Part shown: positions 26,273 through 35,374 of the stretch, one piece after another | Position numbering within the stretch: the stretch's first letter is position 1 | Layout: every line of letters starts with the position of its first letter | Assembly (NCBI GenBank): GCA_944375885.1 | Contig: CALWBB010000232.1 | Span: forward strand, 1-41,172 | DNA from: an uncultured Merdimonas sp. | GTDB taxonomy: Bacteria; Bacillota; Clostridia; Lachnospirales; Lachnospiraceae | Reading direction: 5' to 3' | DNA length: 41,172 nucleotides | Translations under genes and position numbers: made by a program | Notes under the pieces: model-generated | Databases searched by the model: none | Told to the model about the DNA's origin: nothing | The model's input: the letters and a program-made list of their open reading frames with translations, nothing else

Positions 26273-26998
26273 TCAATAACAGCCGCCTTCCACCACAATG
26301 GCTTTTTGAGACTTTTCCGATTCAGATGGATATACCCACGATTCATTAAAAAATTTCTGAGCATACCCGAATACCGGATTTTCTCCCCATCTCTTTCCTT
26401 TTATTCCAAACAGTAGCCGTGTCGCTCCACCCCAATGAATCGCCTGCTTTCCCGCCTGCTTTAATTTCACTGCCAACGGGAATCCATATGCTCCGCAGCC
26501 AATTATAGCCACATCAAATTCTATTTTTAACGCCTCCTGACACATCCAATCCAGCGCTTAAAACCAATTCTCAAATCTGGCATCCGTTTCTCCGGCAATT
26601 GTCTGTACTGCTTTAAGCACCTTCAAATCAAGTTCAGGAAGAATCTCTGTCCCGCGTCTACCGTCTCAGGGAAAAACTGACCATAATCTCATTTGTTCCA
26701 AGCTCTGTCTATATGTGCTTTTTATCTCAAAATCAAATGTCTTTAAAGCACTTAGTTCTGCAGCACCAAATCTGCCTGCCATAAACGGTTTTCCGCAATC
26801 AATTCTTTCAAATATTGGGTTACTGATGTCCGTTGCCGACTTCACCCTTTTCCCTGCGTATTCATGATTTTTATACAGAAAACTCCGTATATTTTCGGGC
26901 CCTGCATCTTTCTTCCTTATGCTGCGTTGAACTCGTGCAAAGCTGATCAGGCCAAAAGTCTTTCCAAAAAGAATCTGTATGCTCCTGCGTCCAAACAT
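26273..26998 (-). pseudogene. Broken second copy of the GT-D-like gene
   Basis: The two halves align with the intact protein at 17332-18279. The first half has FMAGRFGAAELSALKTFDFE and runs to LRLWSVFP-type residues (compare LTARFGYTE and CCWSGFFPETV). The second half has ILPELDLKVLKAVQTIAG and then FDVAIIGCGAYGFPLAVKL and KQAIHWGGATRLLFGIKG. Between them about 95 residues are missing, with a TGA at the junction (26663-26665), and a second stop codon follows ENWF near 26560. With an internal deletion and two stops the gene cannot make the full protein. It lies directly beside a broken wzy-like gene. Confidence 0.85.
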
Positions 26999-27676: not shown

Positions 27677-28900
27677 ATGAAACGGGAAATTTTATCTTTT
27701 TCCAATAAAATTTCCAGAAAGCTTCTCAAACCGGAAAGGAAGTTTATGGCCGACATGAATTACGGCATCCTCGCCTCCGGCAGCTGCCTGCTCACCGATA
27801 TCGTTGACCAGTTACATGAACCTTCCAAAAAGATCAACATCGTTGACCGCCTTTTCAGGCATCTCTCAAAAGGGATCCCGAAAGATGCTTTGAAAGCTTA
27901 TCTGGCACAAGTGAAAAAATGGTGCCCGGATCAGCCTATCATCCATGTCGATGACAGCGATGTTGTGAAGCCTGACGGTTACAAATTTGGAGCCCTCGGA
28001 TGGGTGCGCGATGGCTCTGAAAGCACCGCAGCAAAGAATGTATATAAAAAGGGATGTCATGTAACAGAAGTAACTGTGCTTACAGTCAGTAATCATCCAG
28101 TCAGTATCTTTTCACAGATCTATTCTTCAAAAGAGAAAGACTTTATTTCCATCAATGATGTCACATTCTCTGCTATGGAACGGGCCGCTGCCTTATTCAG
28201 AAAAGCAACCTTTGTCATGGATCGGGGCTATGATGACAACAAGATGTTTTTGAAGCTGGATTCCATGGAACAGGATTATATCATCCGTCGGACCGCCAAA
28301 CGTAAGCTTCTATACCACAATAAATGGGTATCTGCCACAGAACTGCGTAACCGCAGGAAAGGCAAAGTAAAACTGCCTCTGTTTTACAAAGGCAAAATGC
28401 ATAATGCTTATCTTTCCCATATAAAAGCACAGATCACTGCTTCGCGGAAGGATATTTATCTTGTCCTTGTCTATGGGATTACAGAACATCCTATGATGCT
28501 TGCAACAAACAGGGATATCAAATCCAAAGACGATCTGATAAAGACTGCAAAGCTTTACTTTTCCAGATGGAAAATCGAAGAATATTTCCGCTGCAAAAAG
28601 CAGGTGTTTCAGTTTGAAAACTTCCGGGTACGGAAGCTTGCAGCAATCAATGCGTTAAATTTCTGCCTTACCTTATGTATGGCGTTTCTGGCACATATGT
28701 CAATGAAGTCAGAAACAAACGCTCTAAAGGCTGCTATCATACAGAAAGCAGATCCTGTAAAGGAAAAAGTATATTTCAGCTATTACCAGCTGGCAAAAGG
28801 CATCTGTGGCATACTCTCATATGCAAAAGAAGGCGTCAGGCTGTGGTTTCGGACAAAACGTCCGGCATACCGTCAACTTTGCCTTAAGCTGACCGTTTAA
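27677..28900 (+). CDS. IS4 family transposase
   Basis: The 407-residue DDE transposase has HVDDSDVVKP (first Asp), ATFVMDRGYDDN (second Asp) and YFSRWKIEEYFRCKK, which is exactly the Y-(2)-R-(3)-E-(6)-K signature of IS4-type enzymes with the catalytic Glu. It cuts the element ends for transposition. The ATG at 27677 lacks a near ribosome site. GGGGGAGGA lies 37 nt upstream, and 6 nt after it is an in-frame CTG at 27647 that would add ten residues (VNCTSNTYQ after the first). Translation may begin there at a low rate. No stop or frameshift is seen. Confidence 0.93.
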   Translation: MKREILSFSNKISRKLLKPERKFMADMNYGILASGSCLLTDIVDQLHEPSKKINIVDRLFRHLSKGIPKDALKAYLAQVKKWCPDQPIIHVDDSDVVKPDGYKFGALGWVRDGSESTAAKNVYKKGCHVTEVTVLTVSNHPVSIFSQIYSSKEKDFISINDVTFSAMERAAALFRKATFVMDRGYDDNKMFLKLDSMEQDYIIRRTAKRKLLYHNKWVSATELRNRRKGKVKLPLFYKGKMHNAYLSHIKAQITASRKDIYLVLVYGITEHPMMLATNRDIKSKDDLIKTAKLYFSRWKIEEYFRCKKQVFQFENFRVRKLAAINALNFCLTLCMAFLAHMSMKSETNALKAAIIQKADPVKEKVYFSYYQLAKGICGILSYAKEGVRLWFRTKRPAYRQLCLKLTV

Positions 28901-29625: not shown

Positions 29626-32076
29626 TTACTGTAAGGAGACTTCTTTTTCCTGCTCTACTCGCTGTTCCCATGCATTCTTGACCGCATTTTTATAGTCATC
29701 AACCACCTTTCCTAAATCTTTAAAAAAGCTTTTGTATGTACGTTTCTCTTCATTGAGGTCGTAGACCTTGAAGTAGGAATAGAGCTTCCTCAAATGCGCA
29801 AGCTTATCTTTCACCTTACTGCGCTGAATGTAAGCCTGCAGTCTGTCATATACCTTTTCCAAATACTGTTTTCCCAGGTTGCATGTACTCCATAGCGTAA
29901 GAGCATCACTGGCGCCGTTTCCTTCTGCCTGTACTTTATCTCCCTGAGCATTGTCCGAAGCCAAATACTCATATCGCTCTACATACTGATCCACCCTTAT
30001 TTTCACTAGCCATAGAAAATCACTTTGAACAAAATCTGTTTCCTGCAGATCCTCCCACGTCTTCTTCCATTCAGGATCCTTTTCCCGCAAAACCAGGTGC
30101 AAAACTGCAATACGGTAAATCAGGAGGTTGTTAATAATATCCGTGTCCGGAATATTGCCTTCCGAAAGCTGGTATGCCTCCAGGTACGATATTGGATCAA
30201 GTTCCAGAAGTAAAATACTCCCACAGTCAGCTACTATCTCCTTAAATCTGGTTCGAATATCTTCTAATAAGTCTTCCAAACCATCGGTCTGAATTGCGAA
30301 CCTGAGCAGATTTTTCTTTGCCAGCCGCATTTGCATTCCCAGAATCTGACGTATACCTTCTATATCCGGCTCATCATTTAGGTATGTTATCAAGCTTTCG
30401 CTTACTGTGTCGATCGCATTCGCAAATTCTCCCGTAGAATCTGCAACTACAAAATTATCAACCGCCGAACGTACATCTCTCACAAGATCCATAAAATGAT
30501 ATTTATGTTTCCGCTTTGCGTTCTTTGCTTTAACCTGTCTGTGGATTCTTTCTACAGTCAATTTATATACGCGCTGCTTGCGTTCGATCCAATCTTCCTC
30601 TAATAGTTTCTTTTTTCTTCCTTTATATTTTTCTGCATTTTCATAAAATACTGCTTCCGGAAACATCTCCTCTACTATCACCTGGGAAACGATTTGGACA
30701 TACATCTTTTCGCGTTCCCCGCGTTCGCGGGTTCCCTGCCCTATATAATGCCCGCATTCATGGGCAAGCAGAGCGAAAAGCGCGCGCGGGCTGTACATCT
30801 GATGTCTGGACACCTGGATCCGTAAAAGTCTGCTCTCGGGCTCCAGGCCCAAATCATAAATACTGGTTTTAGGCCGGGAATATGCCAGCGGTGTAAGAAA
30901 GAATTGATATTCATATTCTTTATCATTTAATATAGCTTTAATCTCATACATGACTGCCAGATACATCATACACAATTTTATCGGCACATCGTATGCTAAC
31001 CCATTTCTTCCATCTTGATTCAATATGTTGACACAGCTGATCCCAAGATGATGGATCAGAATTTCCATGCTGTCTATAAACCTACTGGCTGCCTCTTCGA
31101 TTTTTTGGCTTTTTTCATATTTTTCCTGAATATAAGCCTGTTTTGCATTTTTCTGCGCAAGTTCGTCCAACAGGCTCTGCTCGTCCTGAGCCTGCTTTAG
31201 CTGTTCTATAAACAAGCGAAACGCAGGAAAGTAAATATAAAATAGGTCTTTAAATTTTTCTTTCTGCTCATATTGCTCCAGCAAATTCAAAATCTGGCAC
31301 ATCGACTGATAATATGACAGCCATCGCTTATCCCTTTTCTCTCTGCTGTATCGCATTTGAGATAAAATCCAAGACCGTGTCCTCTCACACCAGTTTCTTT
31401 CAGGAGAATCCATGTTCTTTTTCAATAAGACAGGTTCAGGCATAAACTTGATGTCTGCAATTTCCAGCTTCTCGTCGTTTTCTTCTTTTTTATCTTTTTT
31501 ATCTTTTTTATCTTTTTCTTCTTTTCTATCTTTTATAACCCGGCATTTTCCTTTTAAAGCATACAGGCTATAGTAAATACTCTTTCCGTCGCTGCTTTGG
31601 ATATTCCGCAAAGCATCATAGAAATATGTTATATTCCTTTCGTTTTCACTTGAAAAGAACAATATCCGATCCGCGTTATCCAACGTATAAAACCATTTGG
31701 CGTTTTGGGGTAATTTCCCTAATTCCTTCTCTACATCTTCATCGGATATCTCCGTCCTGGTTTTCACTAGGGCAATCAAAGCATATCTGCCATCCTGCCC
31801 GGCCCAGTATTTTTCTAATTCCTCCCCACTTTTTTCATCACTCAACAAGCTTATATACTGCTCTGTAAAGCAGCCTTTCAGCTTCTCACTTGCCGCTGTC
31901 ATAGAAAACCATAAATCAGTAAAGTTTGTATTTCCCTTTGTGTTAGTCACATGATACTGCATCTGATTCCTGACCATTTCTATGACAATTTTCTGCTTCC
32001 ATCCTTCTACACACGGCAACGGCTGGTATAAGGTCATAAGGCTTATACATCTTACCATCGTTTCTTCCACTTTCAT
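29626..32076 (-). CDS. Large HExxH (zincin-like) protein, unknown family
   Basis: I do not recognise this 816-residue soluble protein. The clearest feature is LFALLAHECGHYIGQG, a zinc-metallopeptidase motif with HECGH at residues 439-443 set in a hydrophobic helix. A possible third zinc ligand lies in the acidic helix EFANAIDTVSESL further on. A lysine/aspartate-rich repeat (KDKKDKKDKK) near residues 180-205 separates an N-terminal domain from a long helical middle region. The ATG is chosen over a TTG four codons earlier because GGAG is 7 nt before it. The stop of the membrane-protein gene lies 21 nt upstream, so they form one operon. Confidence 0.8.
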   Translation of the reverse strand: MKVEETMVRCISLMTLYQPLPCVEGWKQKIVIEMVRNQMQYHVTNTKGNTNFTDLWFSMTAASEKLKGCFTEQYISLLSDEKSGEELEKYWAGQDGRYALIALVKTRTEISDEDVEKELGKLPQNAKWFYTLDNADRILFFSSENERNITYFYDALRNIQSSDGKSIYYSLYALKGKCRVIKDRKEEKDKKDKKDKKEENDEKLEIADIKFMPEPVLLKKNMDSPERNWCERTRSWILSQMRYSREKRDKRWLSYYQSMCQILNLLEQYEQKEKFKDLFYIYFPAFRLFIEQLKQAQDEQSLLDELAQKNAKQAYIQEKYEKSQKIEEAASRFIDSMEILIHHLGISCVNILNQDGRNGLAYDVPIKLCMMYLAVMYEIKAILNDKEYEYQFFLTPLAYSRPKTSIYDLGLEPESRLLRIQVSRHQMYSPRALFALLAHECGHYIGQGTRERGEREKMYVQIVSQVIVEEMFPEAVFYENAEKYKGRKKKLLEEDWIERKQRVYKLTVERIHRQVKAKNAKRKHKYHFMDLVRDVRSAVDNFVVADSTGEFANAIDTVSESLITYLNDEPDIEGIRQILGMQMRLAKKNLLRFAIQTDGLEDLLEDIRTRFKEIVADCGSILLLELDPISYLEAYQLSEGNIPDTDIINNLLIYRIAVLHLVLREKDPEWKKTWEDLQETDFVQSDFLWLVKIRVDQYVERYEYLASDNAQGDKVQAEGNGASDALTLWSTCNLGKQYLEKVYDRLQAYIQRSKVKDKLAHLRKLYSYFKVYDLNEEKRTYKSFFKDLGKVVDDYKNAVKNAWEQRVEQEKEVSLQ

Positions 32077-32097
32077 TTGTATCTCCAATCTGTCACT

Positions 32098-33303
32098 TTA
32101 CAACATCAGATCATTTCCTGCGGCGATCCGCTCTATCCTTTCGGAAAAAGACAGAAATTGGCTTATCCCCAAATTATTTCCCTTATTCCAATAAATGGTC
32201 CAGCTAATCCATAGTCTCCAAGCCAGATCCGGATCCCAAAACGTGCATTCTTCCTTTAATAGTTCGTGATGCAGGCGAGGAAGGTTTTTGCACTCACCAG
32301 CTTCTTCGTCCCAGTAGACATTTTTAAAAGCTTCATACAAATAAAAATATAATACTGTACGCGTTTTATATCCATAGAGCCGTTCCCAGACACTCACAAA
32401 GATCCAGTTGTATTCCAACAGCGGTATCAATATCTGTATCGCAGCCCCTGTCTTTTTTCTGTTACAGTCGTTTCCTTCCAACTTTGCCGAAAGTCTCTCC
32501 CAAACTTTTCCCATAATGGCTGCCGTCTGCTTCTGTTCATACGCAGAATCATGTCCTGATTTTTCTGTTATTTTTTCGGCCCAGAAAAGCAGCAGTAAAT
32601 ACTCATATGAAACACTTTTTGTCTGGGGATTTTTCTCAACACCCTCAAATATCTCAGTTATTACATCCAGAAGGCTTTCTACCTCCTCTGCATCTTCGTA
32701 GTTCAAGTTTCGTATCATATCTGTGACTGGAAGATTTTCAATCTCCCGAATCATATCTTTTCCTTTATCTTCCTGCCTTTTTGCAATTAGCTTTTTGCTA
32801 GCTTCTTTCAGTATTTTTATGACATAACCCCGCCTTGTAATTGCTAAAAAGGAAGTCGGTATTCCAATAAAGAAAAGATATGTGCAGCAAATTCCCCACA
32901 CCGTTATTATATAATTTCCACTAACTTCTGTTACATACACTATGGGACAAAGCAATATATAAAATATAATCGCTGCGGCATACTCTGCTTTTTCTATCCC
33001 AGAAATCCGTATTAACCGCTTTAACGTAACGCCATACCAAGAGGTATTATAAAACTCTAGCGTAAACAGTATCAACGACAAAGCTAGTCCCCATACGAGC
33101 CCAAACGCATCTATAAGATGGCTACCCTCATGTGTAAGAAATTGCCCGGATATCTGATGGTGCATTTTCAAAGCTGCACAAACCTGTCCCTGTCCGTCTA
33201 ACAAACCCAGAGGATACACTATAACTGCCAAAAGCATTATAACCATACAACTAACTAATAGACCGCCCGTTATTATTGCAATTGGCTTGACACGAGAATT
33301 CAT
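32098..33303 (-). CDS. Four-helix membrane protein with an HEGSH motif, unknown family
   Basis: This 401-residue protein has membrane helices at about residues 8-34, 66-85, 109-127 and 131-154, then a soluble, mainly helical domain to the end. Between the first two helices lies FLTHEGSHLIDAFG, an HExxH motif (residues 58-62) in a setting that fits the zincin pattern. The soluble part contains acidic clusters (YEDAEEVESLLDVITEIFEG) and many Trp and Tyr in its last 80 residues. I do not recognise the family. It is the first gene of a two-gene operon with the 816-aa HECGH protein. The ribosome site is weak (AAGGA, 13 nt away). Confidence 0.78.
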   Translation of the reverse strand: MNSRVKPIAIITGGLLVSCMVIMLLAVIVYPLGLLDGQGQVCAALKMHHQISGQFLTHEGSHLIDAFGLVWGLALSLILFTLEFYNTSWYGVTLKRLIRISGIEKAEYAAAIIFYILLCPIVYVTEVSGNYIITVWGICCTYLFFIGIPTSFLAITRRGYVIKILKEASKKLIAKRQEDKGKDMIREIENLPVTDMIRNLNYEDAEEVESLLDVITEIFEGVEKNPQTKSVSYEYLLLLFWAEKITEKSGHDSAYEQKQTAAIMGKVWERLSAKLEGNDCNRKKTGAAIQILIPLLEYNWIFVSVWERLYGYKTRTVLYFYLYEAFKNVYWDEEAGECKNLPRLHHELLKEECTFWDPDLAWRLWISWTIYWNKGNNLGISQFLSFSERIERIAAGNDLML

Positions 33304-33711: not shown

Positions 33712-34116
33712 ATGACAAGGGAAGAAGCACTCATTCGAAGCATTATTGGCCCCTCAGGCGGCGACGTATGCCCGCTTGCTCACGCTGTCCGGATTATGAT
33801 ACGCCTGCTGTTCTCTGAACACATGTCTCAGGACGACGTGCAGATGCGCACCCACATCTATCCGGAAGTCGCGCGCCTGACAGGCAAGACGGAATCCGCC
33901 GTCTCCCGGCAGATCGAGCGCGTGGAAAATCTCTGCTGGGAGCACCTTGACGCGGTCGGACAGCGGACGTATATCGGGAAACAGTTACGGGATATCCGCG
34001 CGCCCAGAGACATCATGATTTACCTCGCGTACTATTCTCATTTCAACATACCGTACTATGAAGTTTTGAAAAATCACCCGGAAATCTTGTTTGCGGGGGA
34101 CGTTATCCAAAAATAG
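33712..34116 (+). CDS. Stand-alone Spo0A C-terminal-domain-like DNA-binding protein
   Basis: The 134-residue protein resembles the DNA-binding domain of Spo0A without the receiver domain. The stretch RTHIYPEVARLTGKTESAVSRQIERVENLCWEHLD (residues 46-80; here named by position) parallels the YPxIAxxxxTTxxxVERAIRxAIxxxW pattern of Spo0A, including the recognition helix after TGKT. The remaining 50 residues are extra. AAGGAG is 12 nt before the ATG, slightly far. Three GTCG boxes lie upstream. Small proteins of this kind occur in Clostridial genomes and mobile elements. It probably controls itself or the adjacent operon; the target is unproven. Confidence 0.65.
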   Translation: MTREEALIRSIIGPSGGDVCPLAHAVRIMIRLLFSEHMSQDDVQMRTHIYPEVARLTGKTESAVSRQIERVENLCWEHLDAVGQRTYIGKQLRDIRAPRDIMIYLAYYSHFNIPYYEVLKNHPEILFAGDVIQK

Positions 34117-34244: not shown

Positions 34245-35225
34245 TCATTGATTTCCAGCGATCAGTTCGATCTGCCTGCGTTTATCTTCCAGGGAAGGAT
34301 GTACATAATAATTCAAAGTCATCTGGACATTGGAGTGCCCTAAAATTTCACTCAGGGATTTGACATCGACGCCTGCCGTCACGCACCGTGTAGCGAAGGT
34401 GTGGCGCAAAGCATGGAAATGGATATCGGGAAGCCTGTTCTTTTTCAGGAAATATTTGAAATGATTTTGGTAGGTTCTGGGCTCTATGAATTCTCTGCCG
34501 CCCGTAAGAAAATAGAGATTTGAATCAGATTTTGGAAGCTGGCCTTTCAGTATTTCCAGCAGGAAGCCGGGAAGGGGGATTTCCCTGCTTCCTGCCAGGC
34601 TTTTCGGCGGGCTGCATATGATCTTTGTCCTTGGCCCGCCTGTTTCCACATTCTGAATCCGCTGCAATGTGGAAGAAATCCGGATACACCCCGTCTCCAG
34701 ACAGATGTTTTCCCATTTCAAAGCGCAGATTTCGCCAAGGCGCATACCCGTATAAAGGCAGAGCAAAATCCCCGTGCAGAGCGGATCCACGCTGTTTGAA
34801 AGAAGGAAGGACTCCAGCCGGATCCGGGAAGCGGTGTCAAGAATCATAATCTGCCTGCTCTTTTTGTGCAGGTTTACAGGTCTGGAAAGCCGGCCGGATA
34901 TCTGATATGTGTCTTCTGCCAGGCGGATGACCGCTTTGATAATCACATAGATATCATTCACCGTTTTGGGCGCCAAGCCTCCATTTTTATCGACCCGCCC
35001 CTGTTCCAGCAGCATTTTCAGATATACGTTTATCCCCGCCGCATCCAGTCTCTGGAGTTCTTCTTTGCCCAGATAAGGAAGAATATGCCTGTTAAGCGTG
35101 TGGACATACCGGGCATAGGTCGAAGGCTTGACAAAGAGGCGCCTGGCTGCCAGCCAGTCCTTGGCAGCCTGTTCAAAGGTGACAGTAATTCCCTGCTGTT
35201 TCATCATTTGTTTGTTCTGCTCCAT
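34245..35225 (-). CDS. Tyrosine recombinase / integrase
   Basis: The 326-residue protein has an N-terminal SAM-like core-binding domain (about residues 12-110) and a C-terminal catalytic domain with all expected residues: R162 in YTGMRLGEI, K208 in PPKSLAGSREIPL, H271 and R274 in FHALRHTFA, H297 in ILGHSNV and Y307 in LNYYVHP. It breaks and joins DNA for integration and excision of a mobile segment. The start is set by AAAAGGAG 8 nt before the ATG, although the frame is open 30 codons further. TATAAT at 35262-35267 may be its -10. No tRNA or clear attachment repeat was found. Confidence 0.93.
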   Translation of the reverse strand: MEQNKQMMKQQGITVTFEQAAKDWLAARRLFVKPSTYARYVHTLNRHILPYLGKEELQRLDAAGINVYLKMLLEQGRVDKNGGLAPKTVNDIYVIIKAVIRLAEDTYQISGRLSRPVNLHKKSRQIMILDTASRIRLESFLLSNSVDPLCTGILLCLYTGMRLGEICALKWENICLETGCIRISSTLQRIQNVETGGPRTKIICSPPKSLAGSREIPLPGFLLEILKGQLPKSDSNLYFLTGGREFIEPRTYQNHFKYFLKKNRLPDIHFHALRHTFATRCVTAGVDVKSLSEILGHSNVQMTLNYYVHPSLEDKRRQIELIAGNQ

Positions 35226-35374
35226 TTTTCTTCTCCTTTTCGTAAAAATATTGCAGATATAATTATAAGCTGACAAAACAGGGAATTCTCTGAAAATACG
35301 CTGTGCCGCTTGCAAGGGAAAAGCCCGCGAATCCTATCTTAGAACGCAGCTCCCTTTTTCCATCTTTCTATCTT

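Follow-up and report, generated by a model that had tools for sequence, protein, structure and literature searches.

The question raised by this locus is what a large soluble protein with an HExxH motif does beside a membrane protein that carries such a motif as well. The two genes lie in a stretch of 41,172 nt of an uncultured Merdimonas sp. (contig CALWBB010000232.1), here called the window. The preliminary description of this DNA had reported a co-directional module of two genes encoding proteins of 816 and 401 aa, and the open reading frames (ORFs), their sizes and the gap of 21 nt between them were confirmed (Table 1). Both are read from the minus strand, with the gene of the membrane protein P0002 upstream and that of the soluble protein P0001 downstream, and a GGAG sits 6 nt 5' of the P0001 ATG. 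The positions of the two motifs, HECGH in P0001 and HEGSH in P0002, came out the same when recomputed from the reading frames. We found that the genes of P0001 and its relatives adjoin, in gut-type bacteria, interchangeable partners of types that also occur in bacterial immune systems. Tentatively, and with close to even confidence, we read the pair as one version of a modular conflict operon, probably directed against phages or mobile elements.

For P0001 and P0002, Pfam and NCBIfam returned nothing above their curated cut-offs, and searches of PADLOC to E 5 and of PHROGs to E 1 found no match; for P0001, no match was obtained at E 1 or better in Pfam or among the PDB sequences. A search with P0001 of 200 genomes of the same taxonomic family found 5 positive ones, the window genome counted, and thus four relatives. 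The profile A1 of these five proteins was positive in 15 of 397 genomes of that family, its own included, so that the module is accessory. In a sample of the class, the same profile matched 3 of 291 genomes, again with its own among them; G446 was added from this search, while the third, G472, matched at 7e-4 and is not part of the resulting set of 16 proteins, namely the window protein and 15 relatives. P0001 is 14-34% identical to the 15 aligned relatives, and BLASTP at E below 1e-3 ties it directly to 11 of them.

Seven residues (H439, E440, H443, R455, E613, D617 and R655) are invariant in all 16 aligned members, E613 being the sole invariant Glu C-terminal to the HExxH. It opens an ExxxD motif, often ESYADL-like, with a largely hydrophobic stretch after it. 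Gluzincins, e.g. M48 and ImmA/IrrE, combine an HExxH with a downstream Glu. Since the HExxH and the downstream invariant E613 match this arrangement, the sequences support P0001 as a member of an undescribed zincin family, probably of the gluzincin type, and the earlier proposal of an unrecognised HExxH family is borne out by the motif conserved in 16/16 proteins and by the lack of a library model. As in the gluzincin metallopeptidases, the HExxH lies within a helix, in a low-confidence AlphaFold model, and the ExxxD follows downstream; unlike them, the family keeps its two motifs roughly 156-281 residues apart and has extensive N- and C-terminal parts, and P0001 has no Pfam match. A ferredoxin-like fold, with its strand-helix-strand-strand-helix-strand order, is predicted for residues 98-182 of P0001 (model mf27565fc562e, pLDDT (predicted local distance difference test) of the block 48-80), and no Foldseek match to this poor model of P0001 reached E 0.001.

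Some other sequences came up in these searches. A 379-aa protein of G836 (L056:7897-9036, minus strand) presents IAHELSH and, about 20 residues on, EIYADL; with a profile E of 3.2e-5 to 6e-9 it is perhaps a compact relative of the zincin core, and it was left uncounted. In the assembly of G264, the HExxH gene (L041:6874-9373) is split between two ORFs that overlap. A possible connection to RNase L was dismissed as chance: a single match of profile A3 to 4o1o (1.7e-5), located on the helix of the ExxxD, did not recur with profile A5. The weak match in G795 is an IS91-type transposase, which fuller profiles place no better than E 0.05, and the candidate relative in G1013 received no support from the profile.

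We then considered the genes beside the HExxH gene. A same-strand neighbour is present in all 16 loci, at -59 to 364 nt, and in 13 of them it overlaps or lies at 54 nt or less (the spacing in G097 and G264 being measured from the first of the two ORFs that form the HExxH gene). Eight neighbours are of the DACNH-DAC type, five are multi-pass membrane proteins, two are SIR2 proteins and one is an FRG protein. Among the DAC-type partners, the Pfam DAC model scored above cut-off in G028, G227, G270 and G334 and below it in G337 and G370; the G111 partner matched DACNH alone, below cut-off, and the G392 partner was assigned through BLASTP to the other DAC partners and through shared motifs. The membrane-type partners, in the window, G035, G097, G225 and G264, present three to four hydrophobic segments each by hydropathy. 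SIR2_2 partners are found in G149 and G446 and the FRG partner in G296. Additionally, in the DAC operon of G227 the DAC gene is followed by an overlapping gene for a SLATT_5 protein with two transmembrane segments (2TM). PADLOC matched one of the two SIR2 partners (ThsA, 5.5e-15), the FRG partner (PDC-S15, 2.8e-25) and this SLATT protein (RTasSLATT, 1.6e-14).

These data suggest, without proving it, that partners were exchanged within the family. On a tree of 15 HExxH proteins, from which L043 (G296) was left out and which has several long branches and weak deep forks, the membrane-partnered G225 falls into one group, at 88/92, with two members whose partner is a DAC. The tree calls for three changes of partner type, whereas three types could be accounted for with two. 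A stronger argument for exchange than the tree is that the partners are unrelated to each other.

The DAC partners, the commonest type, were compared with known cyclases. All 14 aligned DAC proteins (alignment A14) keep D-G and G-[AS]-R-[HFY]-N-S, and active diadenylate cyclases have R-H-R at the latter motif. Because R-[HFY]-N replaces R-H-R in all 14, their product or activity may differ from that of the active enzymes. The profile of A14 matched no PDB chain, and for the N-terminal part of the DACNH-DAC proteins the Pfam text says only 'Probable sensor domain'. In 250 genomes of the family, Pfam DACNH gave four matches, three of which are the HExxH partners in G028, G111 and G227; the fourth, in G245, is out of frame within another ORF and was discarded. 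Beyond the family, a relative of the DAC partner in G028 is encoded on each of six plasmids. In two of the six, from Gluconobacter (L059:3461-7131) and Citrobacter (L063:3373-7047), it adjoins a nucleotidyltransferase and a patatin-like phospholipase, and in a Priestia plasmid a nucleotidyltransferase lies some 680 nt from it. PADLOC, applied to the Gluconobacter locus, confirmed a cyclase and a phospholipase effector of the cyclic oligonucleotide-based anti-phage signalling system (CBASS). The HExxH profile had no match in the six plasmid stretches. The DACNx domains reportedly go back to a paper in J. Bacteriol. from 2020, and their association with HExxH proteins may already appear there.

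P0002 had been put forward as a possible second zincin. By hydropathy it consists of hydrophobic segments at residues 10-28, 63-81, 109-127 and 132-150, with about 250 mainly polar residues after them. Its only detectable homologue adjoins the HExxH gene in G035 and in Eubacterium sp. An11 (the An11 copy being a near-copy; 24-26% identical to P0002), and the HEGSH position reads KSLED there, with K, S and D in place of H, E and H. As the motif is missing from this homologue, the HEGSH of P0002 is probably a chance motif and a role as a membrane metalloprotease is unsupported. An HExxH occurs in 0.85% of 20,000 shuffles of P0002, and in 7 of 133 ORFs of 300-520 aa from the examined loci, the partner genes and P0002 being among the 133. 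The neighbourhood survey that the preliminary description had proposed for the pair was favourable, in small numbers: a two-protein profile of the P0002 type reported 4 of 397 genomes of the family, and the two credible ones, the window and G035, both adjoin an HExxH gene, so that the two genes co-occur on two cases. The matches in G228 and G195 are weak and lie inside unrelated genes.

Considering these partners together, the constant part of the proposed operon would be a cytosolic protein composed of a ferredoxin-like region at the N-terminus, likely for sensing, a zincin centre and a helical C-terminus, and the exchangeable part would be the neighbour gene, encoding a DACNH-DAC cyclase-like, multi-pass membrane, SIR2 or FRG protein. 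The HExxH protein would detect a signal related to an invader, upon which its zinc centre would be activated; it would then switch on the membrane partner, most simply by cutting its cytosolic domain, the membrane would be compromised and the cell would cease to support the invader. We infer zinc binding, proteolysis, sensing, partner activation, membrane damage and defence alike. A wider proposal, which we hold with somewhat less than even confidence, is that of an unrecognised immune class in which one zincin sensor-protease is coupled repeatedly to unrelated outputs (DACNH-DAC with or without SLATT, SIR2, FRG and multi-pass membrane proteins), protease triggering and nucleotide signalling being interchangeable in one gene slot. 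If true, a peptidase family without library model would be added to bacterial immunity and the DACNH-DAC proteins would gain a biological context. The same core protein beside four kinds of output gene would also be a natural experiment, in which comparing the partner types would reveal what the core senses and how the signal passes on.

Three known systems offer comparisons. The CBASS and DAC conflict operons resemble the family in the DACNH-DAC partners of eight HExxH relatives, and in the nucleotidyltransferase and patatin genes beside plasmid relatives of that partner; they differ in that neither a CD-NTase nor a DAC was identified in the window, by PADLOC on the module proteins and Pfam on the scanned neighbours. 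In bacterial pairs of a gasdermin and a protease, cleavage triggers membrane damage. Here too a protease-type gene adjoins a presumed membrane-active partner and membrane damage set off by cleavage is proposed, but no gasdermin, caspase or trypsin was matched and the partner is a multi-pass membrane protein; for P0002, a gasdermin domain was sought above cut-off in Pfam, NCBIfam and PADLOC and not found. Panoptes is a two-gene operon of mCpol and a 2TM effector that often adjoins CBASS (PMC12657218). The two-gene layout with a membrane effector is alike, whereas no such domains were matched here and the conserved part is the HExxH protein. The available portions of the literature searched, PMC12657218, PMC7159879 and PMC8195603 among them, contain no description of this combination.

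Several observations weigh against the conflict operon. The FRG-partnered G296 (L043) is the weakest member and is linked by BLASTP to no other HExxH protein; it keeps the invariant residues and was recovered at 1.2e-7, 2.7e-11 and 3.2e-10 by profiles built without L043. The search profiles are themselves biased toward sequences that keep the motifs, and AlphaFold models of the HExxH protein, from two-sequence alignments, reached a mean pLDDT of 41.3 and 45.7. The membrane partner class is defined by hydropathy only, because the G097, G225 and G264 proteins have no detectable homology to P0002 or to one another. On the tree, partner type is otherwise clustered, and the well-supported branches are compatible with a single origin per type. 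PADLOC matched none of the HExxH proteins tested (window, G028, G111, G227, G446), neither of two DAC proteins tested, nor the second SIR2 partner. Among 14 window genes scanned with Pfam, no defence gene was found (RnlA_toxin matched at 0.013, below cut-off; the flanking genes were not PADLOC-scanned). The queries used recovered no relative of P0001 from the collections of phages, plasmids and viral contigs; plasmid and phage searches with P0003 and a plasmid search with P0002 gave nothing, and a search of genome contigs gave none with P0001 alone and one locus with profile A4. Finally, the DAC type of partner is a poor fit to a simple scheme in which a protease activates an effector.

It is mainly because of this last point that a reversed arrangement was kept, unlikely as we consider it. 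There the effector would be the HExxH protein, acting as a suicide or anti-phage protease, with its neighbour serving as sensor, signal maker or anchor. The nucleotide made by the DAC would then activate the protease, and the membrane protein would tether it. The commonest partner (8/16) is indeed of the nucleotide-cyclase type, and the ferredoxin-like region of the model could bind a ligand; the SIR2, FRG and SLATT-type neighbours, however, resemble effectors and not sensors. A search for DACNH-DAC elsewhere in the window genome found no match, which speaks weakly against this arrangement, as that genome is 85% complete and the search had no positive control.

Housekeeping-like regulated proteolysis, by which the pair would sense envelope stress and process a regulator, is improbable in our judgement. 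A membrane protein does adjoin a protease-like protein, and a Spo0A_C-like gene is divergent to the module. Against this stand the patchy distribution, with no P0001 relative at E 0.001 (single-protein query) in the 15 other genomes of the genus, the varied partners and the Spo0A_C-like gene, which is not conserved. A conflict operon fits better, because there are four kinds of neighbour, several of them conflict-associated, the occurrence is patchy and one locus lies near a conjugation gene. Of the membrane-linked role in signalling or defence first suggested for the pair, defence is thus the likelier part and regulated envelope-type signalling the less favoured one.

A toxin-immunity or toxin-antitoxin pair, in which the neighbour neutralises the HExxH protein or vice versa, would agree with two genes that are close or overlapping and together in 16/16 loci, but it is highly improbable: the partners fall into four or more unrelated kinds, including three of enzyme or effector type, and are unlikely to act as inhibitors. 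Least probable of all is a pseudo-peptidase or metal-dependent scaffold, which the substrate-less state of the protein so far and models too poor to show a site would allow, since scaffolds are expected to lose the catalytic Glu and Glu440 is invariant in 16/16.

Table 1 Coordinates of the module, its motifs and the neighbouring features.
Feature	Position	Strand	Remark
P0001, large soluble HExxH protein, 816 aa	29626..32076	-	ORF; TTG as alternative start at 32088
P0002, membrane protein partner, 401 aa	32098..33303	-	ORF; four hydrophobic segments, then ~250 mainly polar residues
HECGH in P0001, residues 439-443, presumed first two zinc ligands and catalytic Glu	30748..30762	-	H, E, H invariant in 16/16
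EIVAD in P0001, residues 613-617, presumed third zinc ligand E613, and D617	30226..30240	-	E, D invariant in 16/16
Predicted N-terminal ferredoxin-like module of P0001, residues 98-182, possible sensor	31531..31785	-	moderate-to-low-confidence model
HEGSH in P0002, residues 58-62, loop before second hydrophobic segment	33118..33132	-	probably chance; homologue without motif
IS4-like transposase	27677-28900		presence confirmed
Spo0A_C-like gene	33712-34116	+	divergent to module; 25.6 bits, cut-off 25
Tyrosine recombinase	34245-35315		presence confirmed
AbiLi-like ATPase and metallo-beta-lactamase-fold protein, G035	L007:12986-15508		downstream of closest relative of the pair

In the surroundings of the module, the insertion sequence (IS), the Spo0A_C-like gene and the recombinase flank it as first described. 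Near the 15 relatives, the Spo0A_C-like gene was matched nowhere and the recombinase once (G296), so by sequence both lie outside the conserved unit. The pair has its closest relative in G035, where a TrbL-like conjugation gene lies upstream (27.7 bits, cut-off 27), and the AbiLi-like ATPase (4.1e-66) downstream is accompanied by a PDC-M48B-like protein. No comparable defence or conjugation neighbours were found among the few genes scanned at the loci of the other relatives.

The corresponding region of G975 presents the polysaccharide cluster, then about 2.4 kb in which no ORF reaches 150 aa, and finally the recombinase and larC; G980 has about 2.7 kb where the window has 29 kb, polysaccharide cluster included. 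The window recombinase seems tied to this variable polysaccharide locus and not to the module, because it is beside larC in G975 and is unmatched in the stretches of G980, G223 and G969. Left of the IS, two short ORFs (90 and 110 aa) at 26273-26998, with weak Pfam matches only, the best being GT-D-like at 0.0028 and below cut-off, are possible gene remnants.

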